Shown here in pieces: positions 15,459-62,658 of a stretch of DNA of 64,000 nt (position 1 is the first letter of the stretch; each line of letters begins with the position of its first letter). The stretch is from a virus. The position numbers and the translations under genes were made by a program. Location of the stretch: positions 62,001 through 126,000 of IMG/VR virus record IMGVR_UViG_3300020438_004021. One strand, written 5' to 3'. Below the pieces are notes generated by a model. That model saw nothing but the letters and a program-made list of their open reading frames with translations, was not told the origin of the DNA and did not search any database.

Positions 15459-15483
15459 CAGAAGAAAGAAGCCATGGTATAAT
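15455..15483 (+). promoter_or_regulatory. Early promoter TTGACA-N17-TATAAT
   Basis: -35 at 15455, perfect consensus -10 TATAAT at 15478, spacer 17, followed by GGG. Starts a transcript about 20 bases before the gene at 15510. Confidence 0.88.
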
Positions 15484-15509
15484 GGGTTTTCAACAGTGAA
15501 GGAAAAACG

Positions 15510-15857
15510 ATGACAGTACAGACTAAAGAATACAAAAAAGAAGTCCGAATGGCTGGTCCCACCAGACTTCTGGACATGGATGAAACGACAATCTCAGACA
15601 TTTATAGTTGTCTGAACGAAGGAATTTGTGAAATCAAGTACACTGGTCCTGATGGAGAAGAGGAAATCAGGTCATGCACTCTAAGAGGTTCATGGGTTCA
15701 GAATGACATGAAGAATGACTGGGTTGACCATGAGTATGAAAAAGGAATCATGGTAGTCTGGGATATGAGCGGAGATGAATGGAGAGGTGGGTCTTGGACT
15801 CAGATTCCAATCGACCGAATCACTTTCGTTGAGCAGCTTACTGGAGTACACAGATGA
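15510..15857 (+). CDS. Small beta-barrel protein resembling the phage DUF2693/WYL_2 family
   Basis: 115 residues from an ATG with GAAGGAAAAA upstream. The core ICEIKYTGPDGEEEIRSCTL...MVVWDMSGDEWRGGSWTQIPIDRI has the pattern of small SH3-like phage proteins that read KxDGxxRxxxCTL ... VxDxxxxxWRxIxxDRI. These are thought to be regulatory, but no function is established. Assignment is by memory of the family pattern. ATGA-coupled to the next gene. Confidence 0.65.
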   Translation: MTVQTKEYKKEVRMAGPTRLLDMDETTISDIYSCLNEGICEIKYTGPDGEEEIRSCTLRGSWVQNDMKNDWVDHEYEKGIMVVWDMSGDEWRGGSWTQIPIDRITFVEQLTGVHR

Positions 15858-16069
15858 GTTTTGATTACCAAGTTGGAGACAAAGCAGTTGACAAGCAGTC
15901 CATGAGAATGGGTACAATCATTGATTTGGTTGAAGAGTTTAATGAATCTGGCGAAAGCACATATAACGCCGCCAAGATTGATTTTGGAGACGGTACTACA
16001 GAATGGGTGAATGGTGAAAATATGACCAAACTGCTTCTAGAAGATTGTACGGATGCCCCCTCGTCATAA
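15854..16069 (+). CDS. Small KOW/SH3-like protein
   Basis: 71 residues, ATGA overlap. The pattern YQVGDKAVDKQSMRMGTIIDL ... KIDFGDGTTEWVNGENMTKL is that of a small SH3/KOW-type barrel like those that act on transcription or nucleic acids. It pairs with the preceding beta-barrel protein under one strong early promoter. Function inferred only at fold level. Confidence 0.6.
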   Translation: MSFDYQVGDKAVDKQSMRMGTIIDLVEEFNESGESTYNAAKIDFGDGTTEWVNGENMTKLLLEDCTDAPSS

Positions 16070-16072
16070 ATA
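16065..16072 (+). promoter_or_regulatory. Late-promoter-like box CATAAATA
   Basis: One base from the late octamer, 34 bases before the ATG at 16106. Spacing fits other late promoters; sequence match is imperfect. Confidence 0.4.
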
Positions 16073-16105
16073 AGGTAGATAAGAACCTCGAAAAAGGAGG
16101 TCACG

Positions 16106-16324
16106 ATGCCTAACGAGAGGAAAAAGAAGAAAGTCTGGACAGAACCAGAGGACAAATCGCAGTGGTTACTAGATTTGATTGATGCCGGAGAATCGGTGGT
16201 AGTTGGATATGAGAAATACTTGATGAATAAACTTGACTACAACCAGCTGGCACAACTCATGCTTCAACTGCGTGAGCTGCTTCCGATGTCCCTTGAGGAC
16301 AAAATGGAAAAAGACCCAGAGTGA
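16106..16324 (+). CDS. Hypothetical small helical protein
   Basis: 72 residues with a strong RBS (AAAGGAGG). Helical, charged (WLLDLIDAGESVVVGYEKYL; LAQLMLQLRELLPMSLEDK). No family recognised. Followed 14 bases later by tRNA-Lys. Confidence 0.65.
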   Translation: MPNERKKKKVWTEPEDKSQWLLDLIDAGESVVVGYEKYLMNKLDYNQLAQLMLQLRELLPMSLEDKMEKDPE

Positions 16325-16338
16325 ACTTCGTAATGCAT

Positions 16339-16411
16339 GGGAGTGTAGCTCAGTCGGTAGAGCATCGGTCTTTTAAACCGGTGGTCGTGGGTTCGAGTCC
16401 CACCGCTCCCA
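16339..16411 (+). tRNA. tRNA-Lys (anticodon UUU)
   Basis: Complete cloverleaf: acceptor GGGAGTG/CGCTCCC, D-stem GCTC/GAGC, anticodon loop CTTTTAA, T-arm GTGGG-TTCGAGT-CCCAC, discriminator A. No encoded CCA. Confidence 0.92.
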
Positions 16412-16432
16412 CTTGGGATTGACAATGAATAC

Positions 16433-16461
16433 TTGACAGGATAAATAACCTGTGATCTAAT
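16433..16461 (+). promoter_or_regulatory. Early promoter TTGACA-N17-TCTAAT
   Basis: -35 at 16433, -10 at 16456, spacer 17, followed by GG. A second TTGACA at 16419 has TAAATA exactly 17 bases later (16442), so two start sites may overlap. Drives the HTH gene at 16553 with a leader of about 85 bases. Confidence 0.82.
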
Positions 16462-16552
16462 GGAATTTGTGAAAGCATCAATAGGACCTAACCCGATGGG
16501 GTATGAGATGCGTGAATGTGAAATCGTCGGGAATTTTAAGGAGAATGTCATT

Positions 16553-16825
16553 ATGATGACAAAGATCTCAAAGCGTCGTAAGGTTATGAACTTCCTCAGC
16601 AACTCTGACAAGGGACTAACCGAGAGCGAAGCCCGCTCAATGTTTGGTGTCAATGCACTGCCTTCAGTGATCAGCAGCATCAAGAAGCAGGTCGAATGCA
16701 ATGGTAATTGGGAAATCGTCAAGGAGCGTACGCCTCGTAACAAGGTTCGCTATTTCATGAACGATACCCACCCAGGCACTCGCTCCTACGGTTTCAACCG
16801 TGACGGCAGTCGCTACGCTATCTGA
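16553..16825 (+). CDS. Winged-helix/HTH-like small protein
   Basis: 90 residues from ATG 16553, chosen because AAGGAG lies 9 bases upstream; the longer frame from 16460 would begin inside the -10 box. KVMNFLSNSDKGLTESEARSMFG, then ALPSVISSIKKQ, reads as helix-turn-helix, followed by wing-like strands (NWEIVKERTPRNKVRYFMND). A DNA-binding regulator is likely but the target is unknown. It has its own promoter and sits just upstream of the two RNA units, so regulation of early transcription is plausible. Confidence 0.68.
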   Translation: MMTKISKRRKVMNFLSNSDKGLTESEARSMFGVNALPSVISSIKKQVECNGNWEIVKERTPRNKVRYFMNDTHPGTRSYGFNRDGSRYAI

Positions 16826-16855
16826 TTCCTAACGGAATCGCCCCCTACAATTCAA

Positions 16856-16887
16856 GTCTTTTGATGGGTTCACTCCCATTGAAAGAC
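16856..16887 (+). terminator. 13-base-pair hairpin after the HTH gene
   Basis: GTCTTTTGATGGG pairs with CCCATTGAAAGAC across a 6-base loop (two G-U pairs). It is followed by only ATTCTT, so it may be a weak terminator or an RNA-stability/processing stem. A smaller perfect stem GATTCC/GGAATC overlaps the gene's stop codon at 16824-16839. Confidence 0.5.
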
Positions 16888-16891
16888 ATTC

Positions 16892-16920
16892 TTGACAAGT
16901 GAATAGAATATAAGTGCATT
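16892..16920 (+). promoter_or_regulatory. Promoter TTGACA-N17-TGCATT for RNA unit 1
   Basis: -35 at 16892, exactly 17 bases, then TGCATT followed by GGG as at the other early promoters. The -10 is weak, but spacing and flank match the family. No ORF with an RBS follows. Confidence 0.6.
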
Positions 16921-16926
16921 GGGATT

Positions 16927-17285
16927 AATTACCTCGATGCCGGACGGTGACAGAATATTTTTCGTTACTGAAGATAATGTATGCAATTCCTCGTGGTAAG
17001 GTGCGAATGCTCAAATGAGTGAAGTAGTCTTTGACCAAGACAGTTGCAGTGCGAGTAGGAAATAACCAAACTAGGTAACTCCGAAAGTTGTGGGTATAGT
17101 TGAGTCCCATCCGTCCATGAATAACGTCTCAGAAGAGGTGGTTCGAGTCCACCCATTAGGGCTGCAGTCAGACCCTGTAGTGTATGTCAGAGTTCAGCAC
17201 GCTGAGACAGGATTTTCCGAGGTTGTGTGGGGTGGAGCAGGGTGGTTGACTTTCTAGTTTGACAGCTCCCCCACACAACCTTTTA
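16927..17285 (+). ncRNA. Candidate structured non-coding RNA 1
   Basis: About 360 bases between a promoter (16892-16920) and a terminator-like hairpin (17221-17280), with no credible ORF on either strand. Many local stems are visible: CGGTGAC/GTTACTG (16945-16970), GTCTT/AAGAC (17027-17041), AACT/AGTT (17077-17089), GTGGG/CCCAT (17090-17110) and a perfect tRNA T-arm GGTGG-TTCGAGT-CCACC (17137-17153). No matching acceptor or anticodon stem was found, so it is not a normal tRNA, and no ALAA-type tag reading frame for tmRNA is present. The exact ends are estimates. Function unknown. Confidence 0.5.
17221..17284 (+). terminator. Long terminator-like hairpin ending RNA unit 1
   Basis: GGTTGTGTGGGG (17221-17232) pairs perfectly with CCCCACACAACC (17269-17280) and GAGC/GCTC extends the stem inward; TTTT follows at 17281. 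The stem's 3' arm is also the spacer of the next promoter. The 5' arm could instead pair with ACCTCG at 16931-16936, so an alternative closed structure is possible. Confidence 0.65.
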
Positions 17286-17287
17286 AT
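17259..17287 (+). promoter_or_regulatory. Promoter TTGACA-N17-TTTAAT for RNA unit 2
   Basis: -35 at 17259, spacer exactly 17, -10 TTTAAT at 17282. It lies inside the terminator hairpin of RNA unit 1. The predicted transcript starts near 17294. Confidence 0.6.
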
Positions 17288-17293
17288 CTACCG

Positions 17294-17466
17294 TTCTAAA
17301 GGAGACCTGCTATGGAGACCTAGGATTTTATTAATAAGATAGGATTTTAATATTATAGCACGTCAATTGACAGACTCAAAACAGCAACCGAACGAAGTTA
17401 ACTGGTCTTCCTATCGTTCGGTATTAAAGACCAGCGTTCTGACCCCGTACGATAACGGGGTTTTTT
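17294..17466 (+). ncRNA. Candidate structured non-coding RNA 2 with pseudoknot and terminator
   Basis: About 170 bases between promoter 17259-17287 and the terminator at 17443-17466. It contains only a three-codon ORF (ATG GAG ACC TAG at 17312) behind a good AAGGAG, so it is probably not a protein gene. Two stems interleave: CCGAACG/CGTTCGG (17388-17394 with 17415-17421) and CTGGTCTT/AAGACCAG (17402-17409 with 17427-17434), the arrangement of an H-type pseudoknot or of two mutually exclusive folds. Direct repeats GGAGACCT (twice) and AGGATTTTA (twice) lie in the 5' part. Function unknown; a regulatory leader or an sRNA are both possible. Confidence 0.5.
17443..17466 (+). terminator. Rho-independent terminator
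   Basis: CCCCGT, loop ACGATA, ACGGGG, then TTTTTT at 17461-17466. This is the clearest intrinsic terminator in the window. Confidence 0.9.
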
Positions 17467-17472
17467 CATATA

Positions 17473-17516
17473 CCCCCTCCTGATATCTAGAAAACGCTAT
17501 ATCCCCTCCTGATATC
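17473..17516. repeat. Two GATATC-centred repeats upstream of an early promoter
   Basis: CCCCCTCCTGATATC (17473-17487) and CCCCTCCTGATATC (17503-17516), 30 bases apart start to start, ending 10 bases before the -35 box at 17527. They match the copies at 10661 and 10757 except for one T. Confidence 0.65.
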
Positions 17517-17526
17517 GAGAAGGTAC

Positions 17527-17555
17527 TTGACAGGAGGTCAAAGCCATGATCTAAT
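17527..17555 (+). promoter_or_regulatory. Early promoter TTGACA-N17-TCTAAT
   Basis: -35 at 17527, -10 at 17550, spacer 17, GCCATGA before and GGG after the -10 as at 12298. Leader of about 17 bases with AAAAGGAG before the ATG at 17579. Confidence 0.88.
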
Positions 17556-17578
17556 GGGTGGAGTAAAAGGAGATATGG

Positions 17579-17770
17579 ATGGCAAAACGAGTATGGGACA
17601 GATTTGACGAAGAAGCCGAGAGAGAAGGAGCCGCCTTCACCAAGCAGGTAGTCACCCAAATTATAAAAGGTGGGGGTCGTGAAGGCAAGAAAATCCGAAA
17701 GCAGAGAAGCGGCATCCAAGCTGCTCTTAACCGTTCTGAAATGCGTATTATGAGGAAATATCTAGTATGA
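17579..17770 (+). CDS. Small basic early protein
   Basis: 63 residues, start set by AAAAGGAG 6 bases upstream. Basic and helical (EREGAAFTKQVVTQIIKGGG; KKIRKQRSGIQAALNRSEMRIMRKYL). First gene behind an operator-flanked early promoter; ATGA-coupled to a zinc-finger protein. A nucleic-acid-binding protein is plausible from charge only. Confidence 0.65.
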   Translation: MAKRVWDRFDEEAEREGAAFTKQVVTQIIKGGGREGKKIRKQRSGIQAALNRSEMRIMRKYLV

Positions 17771-17982
17771 GTAAGTCTTGCCTAGACTGTGGAACCAATA
17801 TTCCAGAAGCACGTTTGAGTGCAGTACCCGACACAGACTACTGCGTGGGTTGTGTCGACAAGAATTCAAAGCCGGTTGTAGCCAGGTTGATTTTCAATCA
17901 CAAGACAGCTGGTGAAGTATTCATCGCCAAGGGAAAAGAGAATGTGAGAATCCTAGAGAGGGAGTACTCAAGGGGCAGGTAA
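17767..17982 (+). CDS. DksA/TraR-type zinc-finger protein
   Basis: 71 residues. CLDCGTNIPEARLSAVPDTD followed by YCVGCVD is the DksA/TraR C4 zinc finger (CxxCG x-I-PxxRLxAxPxxxxCxxC). The family binds the secondary channel of RNA polymerase; here the coiled-coil domain is absent and a ~40-residue beta-rich tail follows, so it might alter host transcription in another way or be a finger only. Coupled to the preceding basic protein. Confidence 0.8.
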   Translation: MSKSCLDCGTNIPEARLSAVPDTDYCVGCVDKNSKPVVARLIFNHKTAGEVFIAKGKENVRILEREYSRGR

Positions 17983-17988
17983 TATTCT

Positions 17989-17996
17989 TATAAATA
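17989..17996 (+). promoter_or_regulatory. T4-type late promoter TATAAATA
   Basis: Exact octamer 19 bases before the ATG at 18015. Confidence 0.8.
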
Positions 17997-18014
17997 ATTT
18001 CAGAGGGACTCCCA

Positions 18015-18278
18015 ATGAAGATTGTGAAAGTGACATGGATAGATGCTGAAGAATATGGTGAAATTGGTTGGAATTCTCTTAAATCGATGAAAACCTATGC
18101 CAAGAAGCCATGCCCCACTATGACTAGTGTTGGGCATGTTCTGTATGAAGACGATAATCACATATCACTAATCAGTACCGTTGGTGAAAAAGAGTCCAGC
18201 AGTGTAGACAAAATTCCCAAGAGTTTCATTAATAAGATAGAAGAACTTACTGAAAAGGTGAATGAAAAAGATGCCTAG
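18015..18278 (+). CDS. Hypothetical protein
   Basis: 87 residues, beta-rich start (MKIVKVTWIDAEEYGEIGW) and a helical, charged end. Its pattern VGHVLYEDDNHISLIST resembles small SH3-like phage proteins with the same unknown role. Its last 8 bases overlap the start of the FmdB-like gene. Confidence 0.65.
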   Translation: MKIVKVTWIDAEEYGEIGWNSLKSMKTYAKKPCPTMTSVGHVLYEDDNHISLISTVGEKESSSVDKIPKSFINKIEELTEKVNEKDA

Positions 18279-18564
18279 TTATGAATACGCCTGCAAAGAA
18301 TGTAAAGAAGTTTGGGAAGAAGTCAGAAAAATATCTGATTGTATGATACCCACTAACAAGAAGTGCCCACACTGTGGTGCTAAAAGAGGCAGCATCTACC
18401 GTCACTTCAGTTCTGCACCATCAATGAAGATGGATGCCAATATGGATTTAACAAAACCACACAACCATGGTGGATTCCAAGATGCGATGAGGAGAGTCGC
18501 GAATGCACCTGGTGTTAAAGGTACAAAATATGCGGACAAAATCAATGAAAAGCATATTAGTTGA
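18271..18564 (+). CDS. FmdB-type zinc-ribbon protein
   Basis: 97 residues from ATG 18271. MPSYEYACKECKEVWEE, then CPHCGA about 20 residues on, is the FmdB/CxxC zinc-ribbon pattern (MPxYEYxCxxCG...CPxCG). An in-frame ATG at 18262 would add three residues, but family members start MPxYEY. The family is often called regulatory; no mechanism is established. It occurs in several phages. Its stop overlaps the -35 box of the purA/purZ promoter. Confidence 0.8.
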   Translation: MPSYEYACKECKEVWEEVRKISDCMIPTNKKCPHCGAKRGSIYRHFSSAPSMKMDANMDLTKPHNHGGFQDAMRRVANAPGVKGTKYADKINEKHIS

Positions 18565-18589
18565 CAATATCATCAGCAACCGATAAATA
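18561..18589 (+). promoter_or_regulatory. Promoter TTGACA-N17-TAAATA
   Basis: -35 at 18561, exactly 17 bases, then TAAATA. GATAAATA (18582-18589) is also two bases from the late octamer, so the gene may be read both early and late. A leader of about 40 bases with AAGGAG precedes the ATG at 18636. Confidence 0.6.
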
Positions 18590-18635
18590 CAAGTACACAA
18601 CCAACCAAAACGTTTTATTATGAAGGAGTTTCGTT

Positions 18636-19709
18636 ATGATTGAGTCTGGTAAGGTGAATTTTCTTATTGATGGACAGTGGGGAAGCACTGGCAAGGGCAA
18701 ACTTGCCGGTTACATGTATAGCAGATTTAAGAATCTGAACATGGCAATCAGTGATAATATGCCAAATGCGGGGCATACCTTTACACGCGATGGTAAGAAC
18801 TTCATCTTTAAGGCCCTTCCTACCGGAGTTTTGTTCGATGAAGTGACATCTTTAATCGGTCCACAGGCAGTGATGGGTGAAGAGCAGTTCCAATATGAAA
18901 TGGAGATGGTGAAGAACGAAATAGGTCACTATCCCAAGGTAATCATCCACCCAATGGCAACCGTTGTAACCGCCAGTGACAAAGATGCTGAAGCAGGAAT
19001 CGTCAGCAAAATGGCAAGTACGGGTCAGGGTTCTTGTTCCGCTACCGTTAAGAAGATGTGGAGACGAGGAGAGGCAAACCTCGCCAAGAACAGCAAGGTG
19101 TTTGATGAATTCGTCGGTGATACCCATTCCTTCCTTCATGAAGGACTTAAGAAGGGTGGTGCTGCACTTTCGGAAGGTAGTCAAGGTTTTGACCTTTCAA
19201 TGAATTGCGGACATGCCTACCCACACACGACGTCACGCGATTGCTTGATCGGGAGAATGATGGACAATGCAGGATGCCCAGTCAAGTCTGTAGGTAGCAT
19301 AATCGCTTGTCTAAGGACACTGCCAATTCGCGTTGGAAGCACTGAGAACACGAGCGGTCCTTACTACGACGACCAGAATGAAATCGACTGGAAGACGGTA
19401 TCCGATATGTGTGGTCATGATGTAGAAGAAAGAACTACAGTGACCCAGAGAGTTCGTAGAGTATTTACATTCTCGGAAGAACAGACTAGGAAGTTCTGCG
19501 AATTTGTTCGTCCGGATTATGCATTCCTTAACTTCGTTAACTACTATAAGGAAGAGGGAGACCGACTCAATGCTGTCTCTGAAGTAGCGACAATTCTGGG
19601 TGAGTACGGTTGCGACCTTACACTACTAGGTACTGGTGCTGGACTAGACGATATGGAAATGACCAGCAACGAGCAAATCCTAGGCAAGCAGGAAACACTT
19701 TTTGCATGA
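18636..19709 (+). CDS. Adenylosuccinate-synthetase family enzyme, PurZ-like (aminoadenylosuccinate synthase candidate)
   Basis: 357 residues. Family motifs are clear: the P-loop DGQWGSTGKGK (12-22), NAGHTF with H47, ASTGQGSCSAT, SEGSQGFDLSM and CGHAYPHTTS. PurA of cells reads GQWGDEGKGK there; its catalytic Asp is replaced here by S17. This substitution is the hallmark recalled for phage PurZ, which joins aspartate to dGMP on the way to 2-aminoadenine (Z) nucleotides. Length also fits the short archaeal/PurZ class rather than the ~430-residue bacterial PurA. It has its own promoter and is ATGA-coupled to a nucleotide-kinase gene. An IMP-using PurA variant cannot be excluded. Confidence 0.82.
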   Translation: MIESGKVNFLIDGQWGSTGKGKLAGYMYSRFKNLNMAISDNMPNAGHTFTRDGKNFIFKALPTGVLFDEVTSLIGPQAVMGEEQFQYEMEMVKNEIGHYPKVIIHPMATVVTASDKDAEAGIVSKMASTGQGSCSATVKKMWRRGEANLAKNSKVFDEFVGDTHSFLHEGLKKGGAALSEGSQGFDLSMNCGHAYPHTTSRDCLIGRMMDNAGCPVKSVGSIIACLRTLPIRVGSTENTSGPYYDDQNEIDWKTVSDMCGHDVEERTTVTQRVRRVFTFSEEQTRKFCEFVRPDYAFLNFVNYYKEEGDRLNAVSEVATILGEYGCDLTLLGTGAGLDDMEMTSNEQILGKQETLFA

Positions 19710-20260
19710 TTCAGCACTGCGTAATAGGACAGGCTGGTAGTGGTAAGTCCACATTCATAGAGAAGAAATTCCCTAGGGACGAACACATCTTCTTTGATAC
19801 GGGTAGCATGCTTAGAAGCATGTTTACCTGTCTCAAGGGGGAACAGACTAGCAAGAACGTTTGGGATTTTGCAAATCCGTTGGTATATAGTGTTTACAAG
19901 CAGTGCTGCACTGTTTCAGAGAACACCGGTTATGAGTTCATAACTGACGGTTTCCCTAGGAACTCATCTCAAGTTAAGAATATGCATATGTTTTTGACTT
20001 CTCTACCCCATAGCAATTCTATCATATTCCATATGCTGGACATTTCAGAAGAAGAGCAGATTAGGAGGATAGAGAAGAGAAATGGAAAGATGAGCGACTA
20101 TCATATTGATAGGATATCACAGTCTAGGAGAGACTTCGAGTCTGTATTGGATGAACTAGACAGGATTATGAGTAGCAGCACTGCGAACAGAACCTTAATA
20201 GAGATAAAGTGGTATAAGCAAGAAGATGGTGATTTCGTTCTGGACAGAAGTTATAAATAG
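19706..20260 (+). CDS. Adenylate-kinase-like nucleoside monophosphate kinase
   Basis: 184 residues; the true start is the ATG overlapping the upstream stop (ATGA at 19706). Motifs of the adenylate kinase family: P-loop GQAGSGKST (8-16), DTGSMLR (31-37, compare STGDMLR) and TDGFPRN (80-86, compare LDGFPRT). The C-terminal third (EEQIRRIEKRNGKMSDY) fits a shortened LID. It transfers phosphate to a (d)NMP; coupling with the PurZ-like gene suggests its substrate is the product of that pathway, which is inference. Ends next to a late promoter. Confidence 0.8.
   Translation: MIQHCVIGQAGSGKSTFIEKKFPRDEHIFFDTGSMLRSMFTCLKGEQTSKNVWDFANPLVYSVYKQCCTVSENTGYEFITDGFPRNSSQVKNMHMFLTSLPHSNSIIFHMLDISEEEQIRRIEKRNGKMSDYHIDRISQSRRDFESVLDELDRIMSSSTANRTLIEIKWYKQEDGDFVLDRSYK
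20252..20259 (+). promoter_or_regulatory. T4-type late promoter TATAAATA
   Basis: Exact octamer, 17 bases before the ATG at 20276 and inside the kinase stop region. Confidence 0.8.
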
Positions 20261-20275
20261 TCAGGAGATTTACCT

Positions 20276-20827
20276 ATGGCATCATTCAACTATGAAATTC
20301 CAGACGAATACTTAGAAAATGCATCCGACTTCGGGTTTACTACGGTAGACTCCGATGCTGTAGAACAACAAGAAAGAGATGTAGCCGAAGAAGTAGCGGG
20401 TGAAATATCATCAAATCTTATTGGTCAGATTAGCACCAAGATTAGCGGTCTAGAAGGAAAAATCAATTCTGTCCTTCTTAAAATGCAAGATGAAACAGAT
20501 GAAGACAATGTAGCAGGTGAAATAAATCTGGTTAGGATAGAAGAGAAGATAGATAAGATTCTTGCTATGGAAAATGAAGAACTTGCCAGTAGCATACAAG
20601 CACAAGGTGAGAGCATCCGTGCAGTCATAGATGAAGTAGAAGAGAGAAAAAGCACACTAGAAGACCAATACCTAGATAAAATGAAGGAAATTGAAAAACT
20701 GGTCTTACCTCTATTGGTTAATCTGACCAAGAATCCAGAAAGAGAGTACCTCTTCTGGCCTGATAGGTCTGAAAAAGTCAATAAGCAGATAGGAAAAGTC
20801 CTTTCTATTACAAGAAATGCCGAATAA
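20276..20827 (+). CDS. Coiled-coil protein, probably virion-associated
   Basis: 183 residues, acidic with long heptad-like helices (about 45-145: LIGQISTKISGLEGKINSVL; IRAVIDEVEERKSTLEDQYL). The end LFWPDRSEKVNKQIGKVLSI recalls a conserved C-terminal block of T4-like marine phage proteins that precede the exonuclease gene. A late promoter and overlap with the exonuclease gene by 11 bases suggest late expression. Function unknown. Confidence 0.72.
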   Translation: MASFNYEIPDEYLENASDFGFTTVDSDAVEQQERDVAEEVAGEISSNLIGQISTKISGLEGKINSVLLKMQDETDEDNVAGEINLVRIEEKIDKILAMENEELASSIQAQGESIRAVIDEVEERKSTLEDQYLDKMKEIEKLVLPLLVNLTKNPEREYLFWPDRSEKVNKQIGKVLSITRNAE

Positions 20828-21497
20828 AAAATTCACCCATCTATCCAATAAGATAACCGAGGATATAGATGCCGTCACCAACAAGGACGGTTCTAGATTC
20901 TACCAAGCACCCAATGGTGAGAAATACCCCAGTGTCACCACAGTCACTGGTTGGGAGAAGAAGGCTTTCTTCGCTGAATGGAGGAGGAAGAACCCCAAGG
21001 AATCTAAAAGGGTTCTGTCCGTAGGAACCAGTATGCACCAGGTAGTAGAAGATTTCTTAGATAATAAAGAAACCTACCTCGATGGTGCATCTCAATCTGC
21101 CATTAATCTTTTTCAGTACATGAAGCCTGTCCTGATAGAGAAGATAGATAATATCAAAGCACAAGAAGTCGCCCTATGGAGTAGTTTATTGGGGTTGGCA
21201 GGAAGGGTGGATTGTGTTGCTGAATATGATGGTAAGTTGTCCATCATAGATTTTAAGAGCAGCAGAAGAGAGAAGAAAGAAGAATATATAGGCAACTACT
21301 TCGCTCAGGCTACCGCATATGCCATAATGTGGAAAGAGTTAACTGGTGAGCAAATAGACCAGATAGTTATACTGATATCTTGTGAAGATGGTAGTGTCCA
21401 GCAATTCATAGATAAACCAGTAAATCACGTAAAAACGCTCAAAGAGATGATAGACAAGTACTATCAGAGTCAGGCACTATCGGAGTATTTAGGTTAA
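20817..21497 (+). CDS. PD-(D/E)XK exonuclease (Cas4/RecB-like)
   Basis: 226 residues. H74 in TSMHQVVEDF, D132 in AGRVDCVAEYDGK and D145-F-K147 in SIIDFKSSR give the RecB/Cas4-type nuclease core H...D...DxK; the later FAQATAYAIMW helix carries the usual Q. T4-like marine phages carry this exonuclease close to structural genes. It probably trims DNA during recombination or packaging. Starts inside the upstream gene and converges with the next minus-strand gene (4-base overlap of stops). Confidence 0.85.
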   Translation: MPNKKFTHLSNKITEDIDAVTNKDGSRFYQAPNGEKYPSVTTVTGWEKKAFFAEWRRKNPKESKRVLSVGTSMHQVVEDFLDNKETYLDGASQSAINLFQYMKPVLIEKIDNIKAQEVALWSSLLGLAGRVDCVAEYDGKLSIIDFKSSRREKKEEYIGNYFAQATAYAIMWKELTGEQIDQIVILISCEDGSVQQFIDKPVNHVKTLKEMIDKYYQSQALSEYLG

Positions 21498-22714
21498 GAC
21501 CTAGGGACGGTTCTCTTAAAAGTGACATCGATACACGGTCTAAAGTCTACACGACTATCATTCACCGAATATATCTCCATCATGTGTCTCCAATGGGTGT
21601 AATACCCATCTAGAGAACCTTGACCATCTACATGCTCGGTATTGGTATCATCGTTGCCAATGAACACCATTCTCAGATCTCCCGTTCTGCTATCTATGCA
21701 ATCCTGAACGAGAGAAGTAACATCCACCTTGACCTCAGGGACCGCAGGTATCGTTCCTAGAGAACCTGCGATTCTCACCCTAGCACCACCTACTGATGGT
21801 TTTATCCCTATCATGGCTCCGGTTGTGATTCCACCACCAGTATCTAATGTAACACCCGTTTCATCACCAGTTCGTCCTGCATCGTCGTCAGGACCTATAG
21901 TAACCCCATTGCTGGTATCGTCGTCAGGTTGGTCTGGGAGTTCGTTTCCATCCCCAAATGGTTTCACACCTAACCAACAATGTCCCAATGGGCTGGCATT
22001 CGTTATGTCGGCTGAATTGGTAGCACCAGAAGAATCTCCACCGCTTGAACCCCAATAGGCATCAGCAGTTGGAGCACCTTTGAAATGATACCAACCCATA
22101 GTATCCATAGAACCAGCAGTCCACCCATTGCTAGCGCCTTGAACGTTAGCATTCCTAGTACCTCTATAAATGCAATATATTCTGTCTGCTATTGCATAAG
22201 TAGCACCACCATCATAGAAGGGTACGTGGTGACCCCATACTTTATGGATTTTAAGACTTAATGTAGCACTAACGATGGTATCTCCACCTGTCAGTCCATA
22301 AGTTCCACCACCACCAGGATCTGTTGGGTCGTTTGGATTACCTGGTGGACCCCAGTCGCTGACATTGGTGTACCAAAAAATTCTAGCAGCTGGAGTTGCT
22401 AATTCATAAGCATCACCGAATTCTTGTTCTCCCCACATATCTTTGGTCATATAATATCTGGCAGCCGCTCCCAGTTGGAGAATGGCATCAGAACTAGCAC
22501 CCAATGCTGTCCTATGTAGGTGGAAATCGTTGAAGTAAGTCTGAGATGTGGGTCCAGTAGCACCATCAATTATTTGTATATCTCGAACATAGGTGTCTTC
22601 GTTAGGGTAAAGTCTCACCTTAGCGGTTACTTCAGTCCCACCGTCACCACCATCATCTGGTTTGTTGACTTCAGCCTGTCTTCTTTTAGTTAATCTGTGC
22701 CTTGCTCGACTCAT
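21494..22714 (-). CDS. Virion decoration-like protein with DNRLRE-type beta domain
   Basis: 406 residues. After a basic start (MSRARHRLTKRRQAE) the protein is beta-rich with Gly/Asp/Pro linkers. SATLSLKIHKV and the C-terminal DVTSLVQDCIDSRTGDLRMVFIGND follow the pattern of DNRLRE domains, which occur in secreted and surface proteins. It belongs to a two-gene minus-strand island among replication genes, so it is probably an accessory head or tail decoration or adhesion protein. Fold assignment is moderate. Confidence 0.7.
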   Translation of the reverse strand: MSRARHRLTKRRQAEVNKPDDGGDGGTEVTAKVRLYPNEDTYVRDIQIIDGATGPTSQTYFNDFHLHRTALGASSDAILQLGAAARYYMTKDMWGEQEFGDAYELATPAARIFWYTNVSDWGPPGNPNDPTDPGGGGTYGLTGGDTIVSATLSLKIHKVWGHHVPFYDGGATYAIADRIYCIYRGTRNANVQGASNGWTAGSMDTMGWYHFKGAPTADAYWGSSGGDSSGATNSADITNASPLGHCWLGVKPFGDGNELPDQPDDDTSNGVTIGPDDDAGRTGDETGVTLDTGGGITTGAMIGIKPSVGGARVRIAGSLGTIPAVPEVKVDVTSLVQDCIDSRTGDLRMVFIGNDDTNTEHVDGQGSLDGYYTHWRHMMEIYSVNDSRVDFRPCIDVTFKRTVPRS

Positions 22715-22739
22715 ATTTCACATACCTCATGGGTTATTA

Positions 22740-23537
22740 TCATGTACCAACTATTCTAATGTCCGCAGTGCCGGTCCCTGTGCAGGTTGCTCTAATTCCG
22801 TTAGAGTTGGATGCCTCGATAAAGAGACTATCAAATGCTTGTAGAGCATACCCATTATTGGCACTAGTGATTCCGGTGTCGAATGTACACCCAATGAATG
22901 CAGTAGCAGGACCGAAGTTAGTGATTCTGAATCCTGTGGCAAATGTCCTTGCGGGCAATGTTTGCTGTGCCACTGCTGTAGAACCTGTTGATTTCTGTGC
23001 GAAAAGGAAACCGGTAGTGAAACCGGTGCTGTTACTTGGGTGTGTAGAAGGTATTGCTACTGTAAGAACGTCAACGTCACCGATATTATTAGTACTGGCG
23101 GCTAGTTTAACATCACCAGTGATCTGGGCAGTGATTCCTAGCAGTCCACTTGATGCCACGGAGATGGTAGCACCATCTGCAAACCCTTTAACAGTGCTGA
23201 CAAAATCTAGAGTACCACCCACCACCTTGTCGAGAGTGCCACCACCAATAGTCACATTCGATACATCGAACGATGCACCACCAGTAATTAGGACTTGTAC
23301 GGGGAGTGTACCTGAGGTGTTACCCGCTACTGGTATGGAACCAAATCCGGCTGCATTGGTATGCATGATTGGGACAGGGGCTGCATTGGTCATCAAGGAG
23401 TCAACGCCATCGCCTCCGGTGTTGATCTTAATTTCTTGAAAATGCCCTACATTATCCCCACCATAGTCAGTCGCCAAGGTTGCTCCGACAGGACTTGTCG
23501 ATGTAATTTGAATATTATCAGATGTTAGTTGTGCCAT
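22740..23537 (-). CDS. Beta-rich virion structural protein
   Basis: 265 residues starting MAQLTSDNIQITSTSPVG. Composition is Gly/Thr/Ala/Val with strand-rich repeats (GTLPVQVLITGGASFDVSNV) and no catalytic motif, typical for phage surface proteins of marine T4-like phages. The N-terminal part reads like sequences that anchor such proteins to the virion. It precedes the DNRLRE-type protein by 25 bases. A TATAAATC box lies about 10 bases upstream, one base from the late octamer. Function inferred from composition. Confidence 0.72.
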   Translation of the reverse strand: MAQLTSDNIQITSTSPVGATLATDYGGDNVGHFQEIKINTGGDGVDSLMTNAAPVPIMHTNAAGFGSIPVAGNTSGTLPVQVLITGGASFDVSNVTIGGGTLDKVVGGTLDFVSTVKGFADGATISVASSGLLGITAQITGDVKLAASTNNIGDVDVLTVAIPSTHPSNSTGFTTGFLFAQKSTGSTAVAQQTLPARTFATGFRITNFGPATAFIGCTFDTGITSANNGYALQAFDSLFIEASNSNGIRATCTGTGTADIRIVGT

Positions 23538-23548
23538 TATCAGTACTC

Positions 23549-23556
23549 TCCAGATT
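23549..23556 (-). promoter_or_regulatory. Late-promoter-like box TATAAATC (minus strand)
   Basis: Minus strand TATATAAATC, one base off the late octamer, 11 bases before the ATG at 23537, with GGAGAG in between as RBS. Confidence 0.5.
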
Positions 23557-23566
23557 TATATAAGTG

Positions 23567-23596
23567 TTGACAGGTATTACCCACTAATTATATATA
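23567..23596 (+). promoter_or_regulatory. Promoter TTGACA-N17/18-ATATATA
   Basis: TTGACA at 23567 and ATATATAAG at 23590; the -10 is TATATA with an 18-base spacer. It precedes gp33 by about 35 bases. Confidence 0.55.
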
Positions 23597-23629
23597 AGAT
23601 GAAAGCAGTGGACGAAAAAGGGGCTTATC

Positions 23630-23929: not shown

Positions 23930-24832
23930 ATGAGTTTCAGTAGTATGAAAAAGTCTTCGGGAGACAACACGAAGCTGTTGGATGAATTGAGTAAGATTTC
24001 ATCTGGAGACAAGGCAAGTTATAAAGACGATAGATTCTGGAAGCCTGAACGAGACAAGTCCGATAACGGGTTTGCCGTAATTCGGTTCCTTCCTCCAGTA
24101 GAAGGTGAGGATTCACCTTGGGTTCGAATGTTCTCACATGGATTTAAGGGTCGAGGTGGTTGGTACATCGAGAATTGCCCAACTACAATCGGTCGCAAGT
24201 GTCCTTTGTGTGAGGCAAACAGCGAACTATGGAACAGTGGACTTGAGACCGATAAGGATGTAGCAAGAAACCGCAAGCGAAGACTTAACTACATCTCAAA
24301 TATTCTGGTGGTAAGTGACCCCAAGAATCCAGACAACGAAGGTAAGGTCTTCCTCTACAAGTTCGGCAAGAAGATTTTTGATAAGATTATGGAATCTCTT
24401 CAACCAGAATTTCAAGATGAAGAGGCGATTAACCCATTCGACTTCTGGAAGGGTGCTAACTTCAAGTTGAAGGTCCGTAAGGTAGCAGGATTCATCAACT
24501 ATGATAAGAGCGAATTTGACATTCAGTCTGAGATGTTCGATGGTGATGATGGGAAGCTGGAAGAATTGTGGAAGAGTCAGTACCCTCTTCAACCACTAGT
24601 AGCACCCGACCAGTTCAAGAGTTATGATGAACTGAAGGCACGTCTGATGCAGGTACTTGGTGGTGGTAACTCTAATATCGCTACCTCTGCTGATGAGGTC
24701 ACCAACGAAGATGTAAAGAAGGTCGCCGAAGAGCAGTTTGGTACTAATAAAGAAGAGACTGTTTCTTCTAGTGAACCAAAAGAAGAGACCGATGCACTAG
24801 CATACTTTGAGAAACTAGCACAAGAGGATTGA
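23930..24832 (+). CDS. 32: gp32 single-stranded DNA-binding protein
   Basis: 300 residues. It has the T4 gp32 layout: a basic N-terminal cooperativity region (MSFSSMKKSSGDNTKLLDEL), the OB-fold core with the zinc site in TTIGRKCPLCE, and a long acidic C-terminus (from ~260 on, EETVSSSEPKEETDALAYF) that contacts other replication proteins. Preceded by gp33, as in T4-like genomes. Coats ssDNA in replication and recombination. Its own consensus promoter and AAGGAG RBS fit strong early expression. Confidence 0.93.
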   Translation: MSFSSMKKSSGDNTKLLDELSKISSGDKASYKDDRFWKPERDKSDNGFAVIRFLPPVEGEDSPWVRMFSHGFKGRGGWYIENCPTTIGRKCPLCEANSELWNSGLETDKDVARNRKRRLNYISNILVVSDPKNPDNEGKVFLYKFGKKIFDKIMESLQPEFQDEEAINPFDFWKGANFKLKVRKVAGFINYDKSEFDIQSEMFDGDDGKLEELWKSQYPLQPLVAPDQFKSYDELKARLMQVLGGGNSNIATSADEVTNEDVKKVAEEQFGTNKEETVSSSEPKEETDALAYFEKLAQED

Positions 24833-26442: not shown

Positions 26443-26634
26443 TTACATTCCTATTTTGCTTTTCGCTAATCTCTCGTTTTCCTCTTGGATATGATTGCTC
26501 AATAAAGTTATATATATTTGTCTTTCCCAAGGTATCATATTTTCTATCTCTGTAATAGAATACTTATGATGTTGTGCCATTGCAAAATTGGTCTGATAGA
26601 ACCCTATCAAGGTGTCATGGAAAAGACTTACACG
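26443..26634 (-). CDS. -1 frame extension of gp26 (gp51-like; probably made by ribosomal frameshift)
   Basis: 63 codons reached from gp26 by a -1 shift at 26634-26640: RVSLFHDTLIGFYQTNFAMA, then QHHKYSITEIENMIPWERQI, ending AKSKIGM. The block FYQTNFAMAQHHKY...MIPWERQIYITLL looks conserved, but part of it lies upstream of the only internal ATG (26580), and no ATG, GTG or RBS exists before the conserved start; TTG 26607 has no RBS either. Fusion to gp26 by frameshifting is the simplest explanation. The stop lies two bases from the tape-measure ATG. By analogy with lambda G/GT it would be a tail-assembly chaperone. Confidence 0.7.
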   Translation of the reverse strand, partial: RVSLFHDTLIGFYQTNFAMAQHHKYSITEIENMIPWERQIYITLLSNHIQEENERLAKSKIGM

Positions 26635-27338
26635 AAAAAATCCTGAATCGACTCCAACACCAACTCATTTCTGGTATCGCATTTACCACAAGTAAATGAT
26701 GCGTCATGCTTCATTGAAGGCATGGTCTCGAAGAATTTCTGAATCTTCAAAAATTGGTCTTGATTAAGACTTTCAACGAATTCATTTAAGTCTGAGTCTG
26801 AATAATCTTTCGCATTATATACTTTATCGGAGTCATATATCTTATCGATGCAAGAGTTTACCAACCTAACGGGGTCTTTTGTTATGACTTCTCTGGTGGA
26901 TTCATCAATAGTCATTCCGAAGGTAGGATATTTCATAACCACACCTATTTCTTCCGTAAGTTGTATCTTGCTGTCATGATCATCTACCATGTTCATTTTG
27001 ACACTTTCTATGTCTATATTCAGGGTATAATCATTTTTGCAATTCTTACATGGCATCACTACCTTGATGGTCTCACCTATAGACTTAGCCCTAAGGTTGA
27101 GGAATAGGTATTCTACATCAAAAGTGGGTAGGTCTTTAACCCTAGTACCATCTCTGAAGTCTACACAGTCTTCTAATATGCTACTAATCGCATTGGTCAT
27201 CTGACTTTCATTGCCAGACTCCACTGCCATCAGCAGGATTTTCTCTTCTTTCACCAGAAACGGTCTATACTTTACTTCCATATTATTAGATGGTAGTTTC
27301 AAAGTATATTCTGGTGTTGCTAGTTTAGGTAATGCCAT
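26628..27338 (-). CDS. 26: gp26 baseplate hub assembly protein
   Basis: 236 residues. Matches the T4 gp26-type (T4_baseplate) family: start MALPKLATPEYTLKLPSNN, RPFLVKEEKILLMAVESGNE, PTFDVEYLFLNLRAKSIGE and two CxxC pairs, PCKNCKN and CGKCDTRNE, that probably bind zinc. The zero frame ends GAT TTT TTC GTG TAA, with the slippery heptamer T TTT TTC three codons before the stop. The gene precedes the tape-measure gene. It assembles the central baseplate hub; with the frameshift extension it may also serve as a tape-measure chaperone. Confidence 0.85.
   Translation of the reverse strand: MALPKLATPEYTLKLPSNNMEVKYRPFLVKEEKILLMAVESGNESQMTNAISSILEDCVDFRDGTRVKDLPTFDVEYLFLNLRAKSIGETIKVVMPCKNCKNDYTLNIDIESVKMNMVDDHDSKIQLTEEIGVVMKYPTFGMTIDESTREVITKDPVRLVNSCIDKIYDSDKVYNAKDYSDSDLNEFVESLNQDQFLKIQKFFETMPSMKHDASFTCGKCDTRNELVLESIQDFFV
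26634..26640 (-). promoter_or_regulatory. Slippery heptamer T_TTT_TTC for -1 frameshift
   Basis: On the minus strand, GA[T TTT TTC] GTG TAA in the gp26 frame. Both Phe tRNAs can re-pair after slipping one base back, and the next codons CGT GTA AGT CTT open the downstream 63-codon frame. Confidence 0.7.
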
Positions 27339-58586: not shown

Positions 58587-59092
58587 TGGGTAAGAAGAAG
58601 AGCATTGACGAGAAAATCGCTGATGCTTTGGATATCGATTTGACAACTGAAAATGTGGAAATTGTGTCTAAAGAATCAGATGATGTAGAAATAGAAGAAG
58701 TGTCCGAGAGAGAAGCGGACATGGGTAGCGACTATGACCTGGTCAGGGGCAACCTAAAAGATATAATCAAGACTGGTCAAGGAGCGATAGACGGCATCCT
58801 AAATGTAGCATCCGAGGGTGAAAGTCCTCGCGCCTATGAGGTGGTATCACAGTTAATAAAGACGGTCGCAGATGCCAATAAAGACCTTATGGACCTGCAT
58901 AAGAAAGTGAAAGATTTAGAGAAAGATGACTCTACCAAGCAGTCTGCCGGTAGAATCACCAATAATGCTATATATGTGGGTTCTACCAAAGACCTACAAA
59001 AGCTGGTTAAAGATTCTAGAAATCAGGCTGAGACAATAGATGCCGATTTCAATGTGATTGAGGGTGATATTAATGGCGATGAGAGAGAATGA
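58586..59092 (+). CDS. 16: gp16 small terminase subunit
   Basis: 168 residues, as T4 gp16 (164). The core DYDLVRGNLKDIIKTGQGAI, DGILNVASEGESPRAYEVVS and LIKTVADANKDLMDLHKKVK is the gp16 coiled-coil oligomerisation region. It recognises DNA and stimulates gp17. Its 3' end overlaps the gp17 start. Confidence 0.93.
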   Translation: MGKKKSIDEKIADALDIDLTTENVEIVSKESDDVEIEEVSEREADMGSDYDLVRGNLKDIIKTGQGAIDGILNVASEGESPRAYEVVSQLIKTVADANKDLMDLHKKVKDLEKDDSTKQSAGRITNNAIYVGSTKDLQKLVKDSRNQAETIDADFNVIEGDINGDERE

Positions 59093-60728
59093 TTCTTATC
59101 TAGGCAACCAAAACCTTAAGGGTATTGGGGTAGAACAAGAATTTACTAAAGAGCAGGTAGAAGAGTATGTTAAATGCTCTGGGGACCCTCTATATTTTGT
59201 CAAGAACCACGTCAAAATTGTCACCCTAGACGAAGGTTTGGTCAATTTTCAACCATGGGACTTCCAAGAAGACATGCTTGAAAAAGTACATGACAACAGA
59301 TTCATTATATGTAAATTCCCTAGGCAGACCGGTAAAAGCACCACGATTATATCTTATCTTCTTCACTATGTCTTGTTCAACTCAGATGTGAGGGTAGCAA
59401 TATTAGCAAATAAGCAGGCTACTGCTATCGAACTCTTACACAGGCTCAAGATAGCATATGAGCATTTGCCTAAGTGGTTGCAACAAGGAGTAGAAGAATG
59501 GAACAAAGGTTCTATCGTCCTAGAGAACGGTTCTAAGATAATCGCATCAGCAACCTCTTCCTCAGCTGTTCGTGGTGGTTCTTTCAATATGATATTCTTA
59601 GACGAATTCGCATACGTACCGCATGGAGTAGCAGAAGAATTTTTCAGTTCTGTCTACCCCACCATCTCTTCTGGTAAAGACACCAAAGTTCTGATAGTGT
59701 CTACACCAAAAGGTCTGAATATGTTTTACAAACTGTGGGTCAATGCACAGAATGGGAGAAATGAGTATATACCCATCGAGGTAGAGTGGGACCAGGTGCC
59801 AGGTAGAGATGAAGCATGGAAAAAGCAAACTATTGCCAATACCAGCGAAGAGCAGTTTAAGGTAGAGTTTGAATGTGACTTTGTGGGTTCCTCGAATACC
59901 CTAATATCCACTTCTAAACTGAAGAACTTAGTATTTGAAGACCCAATACACCGATCAGAAGACGGTCTTAAGATTTTTGAGAGACCCGTCAAAGACCACA
60001 TCTATAATATGTGCGTGGACGTATCTAGAGGTCAGGGATTGGACAACCATGCTTTCACGTTAGTAGATGTCACAGAGATGCCCTATAAAGTTGTAGCCTC
60101 TTTCAAGAACAATAGCATTCCACCGATGGTCCTCCCAGACTTGATTAACAGGATATGTACAGAGTATAATGAAGCATATTGTTTGGTAGAGGTAAACGAT
60201 ATAGGTGGTCAGATAGCAGATATCCTAGCCTCGGACATTGGATATGAGAACGTATTAAGAACTGCTTCTAGGGGTCATAGGGGTCAAGAACTAAGCAGTG
60301 GTTTCAAGGCTAACTCCAAACCCGGTGTGAAGACTTCCACTTCGGTGAAGAGGGTTGGTTGTGCTAATTTCAAGTCTTTGATAGAAGAAGATAAGCTCAT
60401 AGTCAGGGACATCGACATTATAGAGGAGATATCTACCTTTATATCCAAGAAGACCTCTTATTCAGCCGATACCGGACATCACGATGACTTGGTAATGACA
60501 TTAGTCATACTCGGATGGATGACCAGTCAACAGTATTTTAAAGAGATATCAGACATAGATATTAGAAGAGAGATATATCAAAAAAGAATCGATGATATGG
60601 AGCAAGATCTGACTCCTTTTGGTTTTTCCAATGAGGACTCGGAGCAAGATGCGGGTTATGAGGTTGATTCAGATGGTAATGTATGGTTTAAGGGTGATAG
60701 TGAATATGGTGGTTGGTCTGATTGGTAA
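59073..60728 (+). CDS. 17: gp17 large terminase (packaging ATPase and nuclease)
   Basis: 551 residues from ATG 59073 (GAGGGTGA upstream; ATG 59079 also possible). ATPase: Walker A FPRQTGKST around K88, Walker B MIFLDEFAY, coupling motif VSTPKG. Nuclease: VDVSRGQGLDNHAF, LVEVNDIGGQIADILASDIG and TGHHDDLVMTLVILGWM hold the three acidic positions expected for gp17. Pumps DNA into the prohead through the gp20 portal and cuts it when full. No intein or split was seen. Confidence 0.95.
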   Translation: MAMRENDSYLGNQNLKGIGVEQEFTKEQVEEYVKCSGDPLYFVKNHVKIVTLDEGLVNFQPWDFQEDMLEKVHDNRFIICKFPRQTGKSTTIISYLLHYVLFNSDVRVAILANKQATAIELLHRLKIAYEHLPKWLQQGVEEWNKGSIVLENGSKIIASATSSSAVRGGSFNMIFLDEFAYVPHGVAEEFFSSVYPTISSGKDTKVLIVSTPKGLNMFYKLWVNAQNGRNEYIPIEVEWDQVPGRDEAWKKQTIANTSEEQFKVEFECDFVGSSNTLISTSKLKNLVFEDPIHRSEDGLKIFERPVKDHIYNMCVDVSRGQGLDNHAFTLVDVTEMPYKVVASFKNNSIPPMVLPDLINRICTEYNEAYCLVEVNDIGGQIADILASDIGYENVLRTASRGHRGQELSSGFKANSKPGVKTSTSVKRVGCANFKSLIEEDKLIVRDIDIIEEISTFISKKTSYSADTGHHDDLVMTLVILGWMTSQQYFKEISDIDIRREIYQKRIDDMEQDLTPFGFSNEDSEQDAGYEVDSDGNVWFKGDSEYGGWSDW

Positions 60729-60819: not shown

Positions 60820-62658
60820 ATGGCATTTCAAGTAAGCCCCGGCGTGGTCGTCAAAGAAGAAGACCTAACAAGTCTGATTCCTGCAGTATCTTCAACTATT
60901 GCCGGTTTCTGCGGTCACTTCCATTGGGGACCAGCAAACGAAATCATTACCGTGGACAGCGAAAATGAGCTAGTCCAACTATTTGGTCCTCCTGCAGACG
61001 ACAACTTTAAAGAATGGTTCACCGCTGCTAACTTCCTTGGTTATGGTAACAACCTTAAATTGGTTCGAACCATAGACCAGGCAGCTGGAAAGGCCGCTAA
61101 CGCATCTGGTCCATCTGGTCCTGGTGCGGTAACTCTCGTCAAAGGTTCAGGCAGTGTATCAGATGCCGCACAAACCACTGGTAGTTCTGGTGGTCAGCAT
61201 TTTATAGGTAAATATCCTGGTGCCAGAGGCAACTCATTGAAGGTCGCAATGTGGGACGGTGGTTATACTACCGGTATTTCAGCAGGTGCTGCCCACACTG
61301 CGGTATCAGCAGGTGCTTATAAAAACTGGACATATGTAGACAATTTCCAAACCAACATGCCATTCACCACTGGTTGGGCTAATAACCTAACTGGAAGTGA
61401 TACTGTTTTCGATGGTGTTAATGTTGCAATCATCGACGAAGACGGCGATTTCACTGGTACTAAGGGAACGGTTCTAGAGGCATTCAACGGTCTTTCTAAG
61501 GCAACAAATGCTAGGAATTCAGATAATACATCCAACTATTATGTGGATGTTATCAACGAGACATCAAAATATGTAAACTCATTGGCACACCCATATGAAG
61601 CAGGTTCATCGCAGGAAAAAGGTGTGGGTGTCTCTGGTGGTTCTCAAAACTGGGGTACGGTCCTTACCACAGCCGGTGGTACTTTCGATGTCATATTCGC
61701 ATCCAATACAGCCGGTTATGAAATAAGTTTAGCCGGTGGTTCTGGTTCTACAAGTGGTACGATATCCTGCACCAAGGGTGGTACAGTTGACTACGGTCTG
61801 TTCTATGATTCAGAGACAGTTGATGTTAGTCTGATTCTAGGTGGACCCGCAGACAACACCCTCGCCGGTGCTCTAGTAGACTTGTGTGATGATAGAAAAG
61901 ACTGTGTTGCATTCCTCTCGCCAGAAGAAGCAGATTGCCTTTCTAATAATACACCACTAGTTGAATCAACTACCGAGACCGCTATATTGGACTTCAGAAA
62001 TACTCAGCTGAACAAGAGCAGTTCTTATGCATTCCTAGACTCTGGTTGGAAATATCATTACGACAGATACAATGATAAGTTCAGATGGGTTCCACTAAAC
62101 GGCGATATTGCCGGTGTAGCCGTTAGGTCTGACGAAGTTGCGGAGACATGGTTCTCCCCAGCAGGTTTCAACCGAGGTCAGGTCCGTGGTGCAATTAAAC
62201 TCGCATTCAATCCGAGGAAAGCCCATAGAGACAACTTGTACCAAGATCAAGTCAACCCAGTGGTTTCATTCCCTGGTGAAGGTACGGTCCTCTTCGGAGA
62301 CAAGACACTTCTCGCTAAACCAAGTGCTTTCGATAGACTCAATGTTAGAAGACTCTTCATTGTACTCGAGAAGGCAATCTCTACAGCCTCTAAATACCAG
62401 TTATTTGAGCAGAACGATGAATTCACACGTGCTAACTTCAAGAGCATGATTGAACCATTCCTTAGAGATGTTCAAGCAAGAAGAGGTCTACAAAGCTTCA
62501 AGGTGGTGTGTGACGATACTAATAATACTTCGGCAGTTGTCGATAGAAATGAGTTCGTCGCGGACATTTTCATCAAACCCACCAAGTCCATTAACTTCAT
62601 CACCCTAACGTTCATTGCAACTTCACAGGGTGTTGATTTTACTGAGATTGGTTCTTGA
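60820..62658 (+). CDS. 18: gp18 tail sheath protein
   Basis: 612 residues. MAFQVSPGVVVKEEDLTSLI, PAVSSTIAGFCGHFHWGPAN, ENELVQLFGPP and the C-terminal VAVRSDEVAETWFSPAGFNR, GAIKLAFNPRKAHRDNLYQD, VNPVVSFPGEGTVLFGDKTL are the contractile-sheath signature. The variable middle domain (about 110-340) is Gly/Ser/Thr-rich, as usual for the exposed part. Own late promoter and strong RBS fit the high copy number. Confidence 0.96.
   Translation: MAFQVSPGVVVKEEDLTSLIPAVSSTIAGFCGHFHWGPANEIITVDSENELVQLFGPPADDNFKEWFTAANFLGYGNNLKLVRTIDQAAGKAANASGPSGPGAVTLVKGSGSVSDAAQTTGSSGGQHFIGKYPGARGNSLKVAMWDGGYTTGISAGAAHTAVSAGAYKNWTYVDNFQTNMPFTTGWANNLTGSDTVFDGVNVAIIDEDGDFTGTKGTVLEAFNGLSKATNARNSDNTSNYYVDVINETSKYVNSLAHPYEAGSSQEKGVGVSGGSQNWGTVLTTAGGTFDVIFASNTAGYEISLAGGSGSTSGTISCTKGGTVDYGLFYDSETVDVSLILGGPADNTLAGALVDLCDDRKDCVAFLSPEEADCLSNNTPLVESTTETAILDFRNTQLNKSSSYAFLDSGWKYHYDRYNDKFRWVPLNGDIAGVAVRSDEVAETWFSPAGFNRGQVRGAIKLAFNPRKAHRDNLYQDQVNPVVSFPGEGTVLFGDKTLLAKPSAFDRLNVRRLFIVLEKAISTASKYQLFEQNDEFTRANFKSMIEPFLRDVQARRGLQSFKVVCDDTNNTSAVVDRNEFVADIFIKPTKSINFITLTFIATSQGVDFTEIGS

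Follow-up and report, generated by a model that had tools for sequence, protein, structure and literature searches.

A phage lineage of the T4-like group appears to carry a dispersed pathway for the synthesis of 2-aminoadenine (Z), and we regard it as fairly probable that Z is incorporated into DNA by a family B polymerase in this lineage. The gene on which the argument is centred, encoding a PurZ-type synthetase, lies in the window (the whole stretch of 64,000 nucleotides that was analysed), which sits within an IMG/VR record of 136,240 bp. The Z phages have been described as small sipho- and podoviruses (PMC8599892, PMC8775771, PMC12884076, PMC8065100), in which replication relies on the family A polymerase DpoZ or, in S-2L, on PrimPol (PMC8599892, PMC8775771, PMC8065100). 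A 2026 survey of NCBI viruses recognizes at least seven groups, with DpoZ-1 and DpoZ-2 tied to PurZ0 and PurZ, respectively (PMC12884076). A literature search, to which the supplementary data of the 2021 Z-genome papers did not belong, returned no T4-like or family B case.

The T4-like nature of the carrier, proposed in the preliminary description, is borne out by the gene content of the record, which includes the replication genes for gp43, gp44, gp45, gp46, gp47, gp62, regA and gp32, together with RNase H, a RecA/UvsX-type protein and a gp41-type helicase, as well as a gp23-like capsid gene, a contractile tail sheath gene and baseplate genes. Among these, the window contains the genes for gp32, the single-strand DNA-binding protein (23930..24832, +; phrog_224, E=8.8e-114), a T4-type baseplate protein (26628..27338, –; PF12322, E=3.3e-66) and the tail sheath (60820..62658, +; phrog_23, E=3.3e-122), this last preceded by another T4-like landmark, the terminase large subunit (59073..60728, +; phrog_2, E=2e-66). 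The gene order is common to the record and to two relatives of 136,012 and 126,210 bp, and since a single, circularly permuted order is found in all three, the record is, by this reading, a near-complete T4-like genome of ~136 kb. The lineage is, by its gene content, T4-like and related to the Kyanoviridae: it shares replication genes and their order with cyanophages of the Synechococcus phage syn9 type, and the gp43 proteins of the record and of syn9 have about 50% identity. These cyanophages differ from it in that no PurZ match was obtained in the 11 contigs with T4-like polymerase relatives that were tested, a result that is indicative only, these contigs being fragments, one of which (L107) is, judging by its polymerase, probably a member of the PurZ clade.

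The purZ reading frame (18636-19709, +) is open from an ATG start and encodes a product of 357 aa, in which the P-loop GQWGSTGKGK occupies residues 13-22 and a Ser at residue 17 takes the position of the catalytic Asp of PurA. This substitution, from which the preliminary description started, is invariant in the purZ orthologues (71-92% identity), and dN/dS between the query genome and the 136-kb relative is 0.04. The top PDB match of the protein is 6FKO/6FM1 (E=6.8e-55), identified as the phiVC8 PurZ (PMC8342488), followed by 7ODX (PurZ), with the archaeal PurA only behind both, while in PHROGs it is named, in the wording of the database, “2-aminooxy adenylosuccinate synthetase” (E=4.7e-61). 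The best NCBIfam model is NF038379 (PurZ), with 211.7 bits against a cut-off of 300 bits that is a naming threshold and not a biochemical feature; identity to those deposited members that were listed is 28-39%. When the residues are numbered as in S-2L PurZ, with the structural roles of the sites taken from PMC8342488, the query reads S23-T24-G25, T273 and N305-F306-x-N308, like the known PurZs, whereas the corresponding residues are D-E-G, G and T-K-x-D in E. coli PurA and S-E-A (or S-E-A-like), T/S305 and D308 in PurZ0. In other words, the Ser replacing the catalytic Asp stands in an S-T-G context, the ATP-type base site (NFxN/Q) and T273 are present, the T-K-x-D and the Gly of PurA are absent, and neither the S-E-A P-loop nor a placement in the PurZ0 clade was found.

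The phylogeny agrees with the residues. In a 55-row tree, nine PurZ sequences of the T4 clade group together (support 100/99) and nest within PurZ (100/93), with PurZ0 and PurA outside; a clustering of the query with the IMP-using PurA, the outcome that would have spoken against the original proposal, was therefore not obtained, and the query falls inside PurZ instead. Active-site residues, tree position and nearest structures together lend strong support to the assignment of the 357-aa protein to the PurZ type. The same PurZ clade is encoded by 12 further IMG/VR contigs, all public, so that the lineage does not stand on a single assembly. Among 50,697 phage records, the PurZ-type relatives have about 25-39% identity among the matches listed (of 212 records), where each entry with a name is either a small phage or clearly a bacterial sequence; cellular genomes, when scanned, revealed no relative of the T4-like PurZ clade. 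Across 28 PurZ contigs, PolB is found only in the two long T4-like ones, with PolA in 23 others, and PurB is present in every PurZ contig of at least 126 kb and in none below 100 kb. As a separate observation, purZ also occurs, together with PurB, in two contigs of jumbo size, L045 (262,650 bp) and L066 (395,473 bp), and the PurZ of L066 branches very deep in the tree.

The 3' end of purZ overlaps by 4 bp a gene (19706..20260, +) for a P-loop NMP kinase of the adenylate kinase type, which we propose to be a dZMP kinase. The preliminary description was right that DatZ, MazZ and DpoZ are missing from the window, but it overlooked this companion. The protein matches Pfam ADK, the NCBIfam adk model (38.6 bits) and, in the PDB, the adenylate kinase 3BE4 (E=2e-4), contains the motifs GQAGSGKST and DGFPRN, and has no match in the 50,697 phage records. 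With an iterated profile, the kinase was found directly 3' of purZ in every locus of the T4 clade long enough to show it, as well as in 23 of 25 sister contigs (L036-L060), while the DatZ-type loci (L061-L073) are mostly without it. In many of the sister contigs the kinase is followed by a dUTPase with the RSST and IDxGY motifs of the characterised DutZ enzymes, so that purZ-kinase-dutZ would seem to be a second layout of the Z cassette in addition to purZ-mazZ-datZ; in the 2026 survey, PurZ0 is the only partner of DutZ (PMC12884076). Examples of the complete cassette are L042:5001-7039 and L037:5001-7255, both in non-T4 contigs with family A polymerases. No report joining PurZ, phage and a nucleotide kinase emerged from the literature search. 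The purZ-kinase pair lies in a conserved block, with a small ORF two genes 5' of purZ (18015..18278, +; synteny in L008-L015, no Pfam family), a zinc-ribbon protein directly 5' of it (18262..18564, +; Zn_ribbon_8, E=1.8e-9, also syntenic), an ORF 3' of the kinase (20276..20827, +; synteny in L008, L010 and L011, no Pfam family over the cut-off) and an adjoining PD-(D/E)XK exonuclease (20817..21497, +; phrog_298, E=1.7e-60; PF12705).

The other genes that may belong to the pathway are scattered over the record, and their positions are given here in record coordinates. The gene for PurB (2188-3642) is flanked by those for gp47 and gp46; its product passes the cut-off of the NCBIfam purB model, has adenylosuccinate lyases among its matches and is present in all three genomes. 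An NDT-like DUF4406 protein (10253-10657), between gp45 and gp44, is assigned by PHROGs to the nucleoside 2-deoxyribosyltransferases and contains a YIAGP motif and the Glu in GACAE; it was compared with DmtZ, the NDT-family dAMP hydrolase/transferase, and its profile matched no PDB sequence. A dUTPase (26338-26916), a DUF1599-like protein (26913-27308; Pfam E=0.0011, below cut-off) and the T4 gp43-type PolB (27305-29863; PF00136) adjoin in a row. They are followed along the record by a GlnII-type glutamine synthetase (34094-35179; L003:15094-16179) and a class II ribonucleotide reductase (36000-37937), both in all three genomes, by a CBS-less IMPDH (44858-45973) with the GSICTTR Cys loop and the DRY flap of true IMPDH, kept in 3/3 genomes, and by a member of the adenosine/adenine deaminase family (45963-46967). 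The nearest PDB entries to the latter are 3OU8/3PAN, which we take to be Pa0148, an enzyme that, as the title of a 2011 study by Goble et al. (cited in PMC6281700) reportedly has it, deaminates adenine. Every listed pathway gene is in all three genomes except the deaminase, which is absent from the third. Phages that lack PurZ commonly have NDT-like DUF4406 proteins, and the DUF1599-like protein is also found in T4-like phages without known PurZ. The PolB relatives at 47-48% identity have no DUF1599-like gene in front of PolB, nor, in those that cover the region, an NDT-like gene between gp45 and gp44. A tblastn search with PurB and IMPDH gave no Synechococcus phage among the matches listed.

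Several of these genes have features of their own. The glutamine synthetase, which might supply glutamine for GMP synthesis, finds among deposited phages only four metagenomic phage genomes of >630 kb. The two 136-kb genomes share 98% identity in IMPDH, well above most of their other genes (about 50-90%), which suggests a recent exchange of this gene; its start is overlapped by a gene for an N6/N4 DNA methyltransferase (43911-44891; L004:5911-6891) with a TSPPY motif, which is not in the two relatives.

From gene identities, intact signature motifs, co-conservation, synteny, phylogeny and the absence of DatZ, MazZ and a family A polymerase, all of which are read from the sequence, we infer all the reactions of the following scheme, the substrates of the kinase and of the NDT-like and DUF1599-like proteins, and the presence of Z in the virion DNA. 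PurZ would join dGMP and aspartate, with ATP, into dSMP, which the phage PurB would split into dZMP and fumarate; dZMP would be phosphorylated to dZDP by the kinase overlapping purZ and to dZTP by the host NDP kinase, and the T4-type family B polymerase (gp43) would place Z opposite T. Upstream, the CBS-less IMPDH could push purines towards GMP, increasing the guanylate supply, and the class II ribonucleotide reductase could provide dGTP, while the NDT-like protein and, where present, the deaminase may remove adenine and channel it, as hypoxanthine, back to IMP; a role as nucleotide pyrophosphohydrolase is possible for the DUF1599-like protein. In this scheme, the synthesis of dZMP by the phage is likely and the incorporation of Z into DNA is probable, and Z would replace adenine in the virion DNA, fully or partly. 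The additional pathway genes lend good support to the proposal of the preliminary description that dZ nucleotides are made by the phage.

The companion enzymes of the known Z phages were sought over the whole near-complete record, and the absence of DatZ and MazZ, first noticed in the window, extends to all of it. A profile of eight sequences of DatZ, a dATP triphosphohydrolase, gave a best E of 0.19 in the genome and nothing in the two long relatives; profiles of MazZ-1 and MazZ-2, dGTP pyrophosphohydrolases, had no hit, and no family A polymerase (PF00476), hence no DpoZ, was found in the same three genomes; with profiles for DUF5664/DUF550 and Ghobes gp52, the genome yielded noise only. A DutZ identity for the dUTPase next to the polymerase was rejected, its motifs being the canonical PRSG and IDEDY and not RSST/IDxGY. 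The DUF1599-like protein was likewise examined as a MazZ, and no BLASTP match to S-2L MazZ was found; the Foldseek matches of its two AlphaFold models (pLDDT 65.6 and 81.2), none of them significant, had DCTPP1 and further enzymes of the MazG type at the top, and it is no more than a candidate stand-in for MazZ. With a canonical dUTPase and no DatZ, the search brought up no enzyme of a kind already known to remove dATP, and partial substitution is for this reason a serious rival: the pathway would work, yet the DNA would be a mixture of A and Z, since dATP would not be removed and PolB would be blind to dATP versus dZTP. This is a real possibility, though short of probable. The lack of DatZ, of a DutZ-type dUTPase and of DpoZ, the unchanged main catalytic and pocket residues of the polymerase, and the case of S-2L, where a non-selective polymerase relies on dATP removal (PMC8065100), point to it; selection could, however, come from the NDT-like protein, the deaminase and the clade-specific residues of the polymerase, and dATP is usable as energy donor by S-2L PurZ itself (PMC8342488). 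The reading in which most or all adenine is replaced, with a PolB adapted by V561, C575 and N827 and a pathway fed both by a dedicated purZ-linked dZMP kinase and by a conversion cycle of the NDT-like protein, the deaminase and IMPDH, is put forward tentatively.

The three polymerase residues (RB69 numbering) distinguish the five PolBs of the PurZ clade, of which three come from sources where PurZ was seen directly and two (L107, L108) are assigned by 69% polymerase identity. C575 and N827 of these five are F and G, respectively, in 106/106 other T4-like PolBs, T4 and RB69 included, and V561 is I in 103, L in one and V in two of the others; the remaining catalytic and pocket residues checked are unchanged. 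L561 is one of the residues mutated to enlarge the nascent-base-pair pocket of RB69 (PMC3799440). All five sequences share their ancestry, so that the pattern is a lead to a Z adaptation and not a proof of it, and we see the chances as evenly poised that the three changes are lineage drift unrelated to Z: the five PolBs descend from one common ancestor and differ at 10-12 of 173 conserved columns, compared with 8-17 in other divergent lineages and 42 in T4 and RB69, but positions 575 and 827 are invariant in all the others and 561 belongs to the nascent-base-pair pocket (PMC3799440). The absence of a Z-specific polymerase of the known family A type would also fit a PurZ that serves some other end, for example host takeover or defence evasion, by producing dZ nucleotides or using up dGMP, with no Z in the virion DNA. 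We hold this to be unlikely, given that a dedicated kinase after purZ favours the production of the triphosphate and that known PurZ phages incorporate Z (PMC12884076). Less credible still is an ordinary auxiliary PurA that boosts adenylate from IMP, with PurB and IMPDH as general purine helpers; marine phages often carry purine genes and these two enzymes serve normal purine synthesis too, but the catalytic Asp has become Ser, the GTP-type base site is lost, the protein lies inside PurZ in the tree, and no other de novo purine gene was found among the genes scanned with Pfam.

The preferred reading, incorporation of Z by a family B polymerase in a T4-like lineage, sets the query apart from known systems. 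The phiVC8 PurZ shares with it S-T-G, the NFxN ATP site and the catalytic pocket residues at about 38% identity, but its phage, of 39 kb, has DatZ next to purZ and replicates with a polymerase of family A. The Z cluster of S-2L (purZ-mazZ-datZ, PrimPol) is similar in having PurZ without a DpoZ-type polymerase and a non-family-A replication, and it differs by its MazZ and DatZ, which the query lacks, while the query has a family B polymerase, PurB, IMPDH and the purZ-linked kinase. The PurZ0 phages, Arthrobacter phage Wayne, Gordonia phage Ghobes and Streptomyces phage Hiyaa (DutZ, DmtZ), likewise have Ser in the catalytic position, a dUTPase, an NDT-family protein and, in Hiyaa, PurB; unlike the query, with its canonical dUTPase motifs and family B in place of family A polymerase, they have S-E-A and a different base site. 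The 25 sister contigs share the PurZ branch and the purZ-kinase pair, but have family A polymerases, many with a DutZ-type dUTPase near purZ, and are not T4-like. If true, the T4-like case would add a further polymerase class for Z-DNA and a large, genetically familiar phage chassis, and would bring the purZ-linked NMP kinase and a purine-diverting IMPDH into the Z pathway, with V561, C575 and N827 as residues through which the handling of Z by a family B enzyme with proofreading could be probed.

Other genes were noted in passing. The window contains a RimK-like ATP-grasp domain fused to a putative ATP-dependent zinc protease domain (65-1540), a trypsin-like protease adjoining a PLP-dependent (PALP) enzyme (8954-10622, –) and a 2OG-Fe(II) oxygenase (14548-15129) that is not in the two long relatives. 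Elsewhere in the record, a phosphate-selective-porin-like gene (38280-39449) and a PstS-like binding-protein gene (47857-48885) are possibly a sign of phosphate-limited hosts, and a nucleotide-sugar and glycosyltransferase cluster lies between regA and the dUTPase (13469-25676; L002/L003), which is kept in the 126-kb relative and largely replaced in the 136-kb one.
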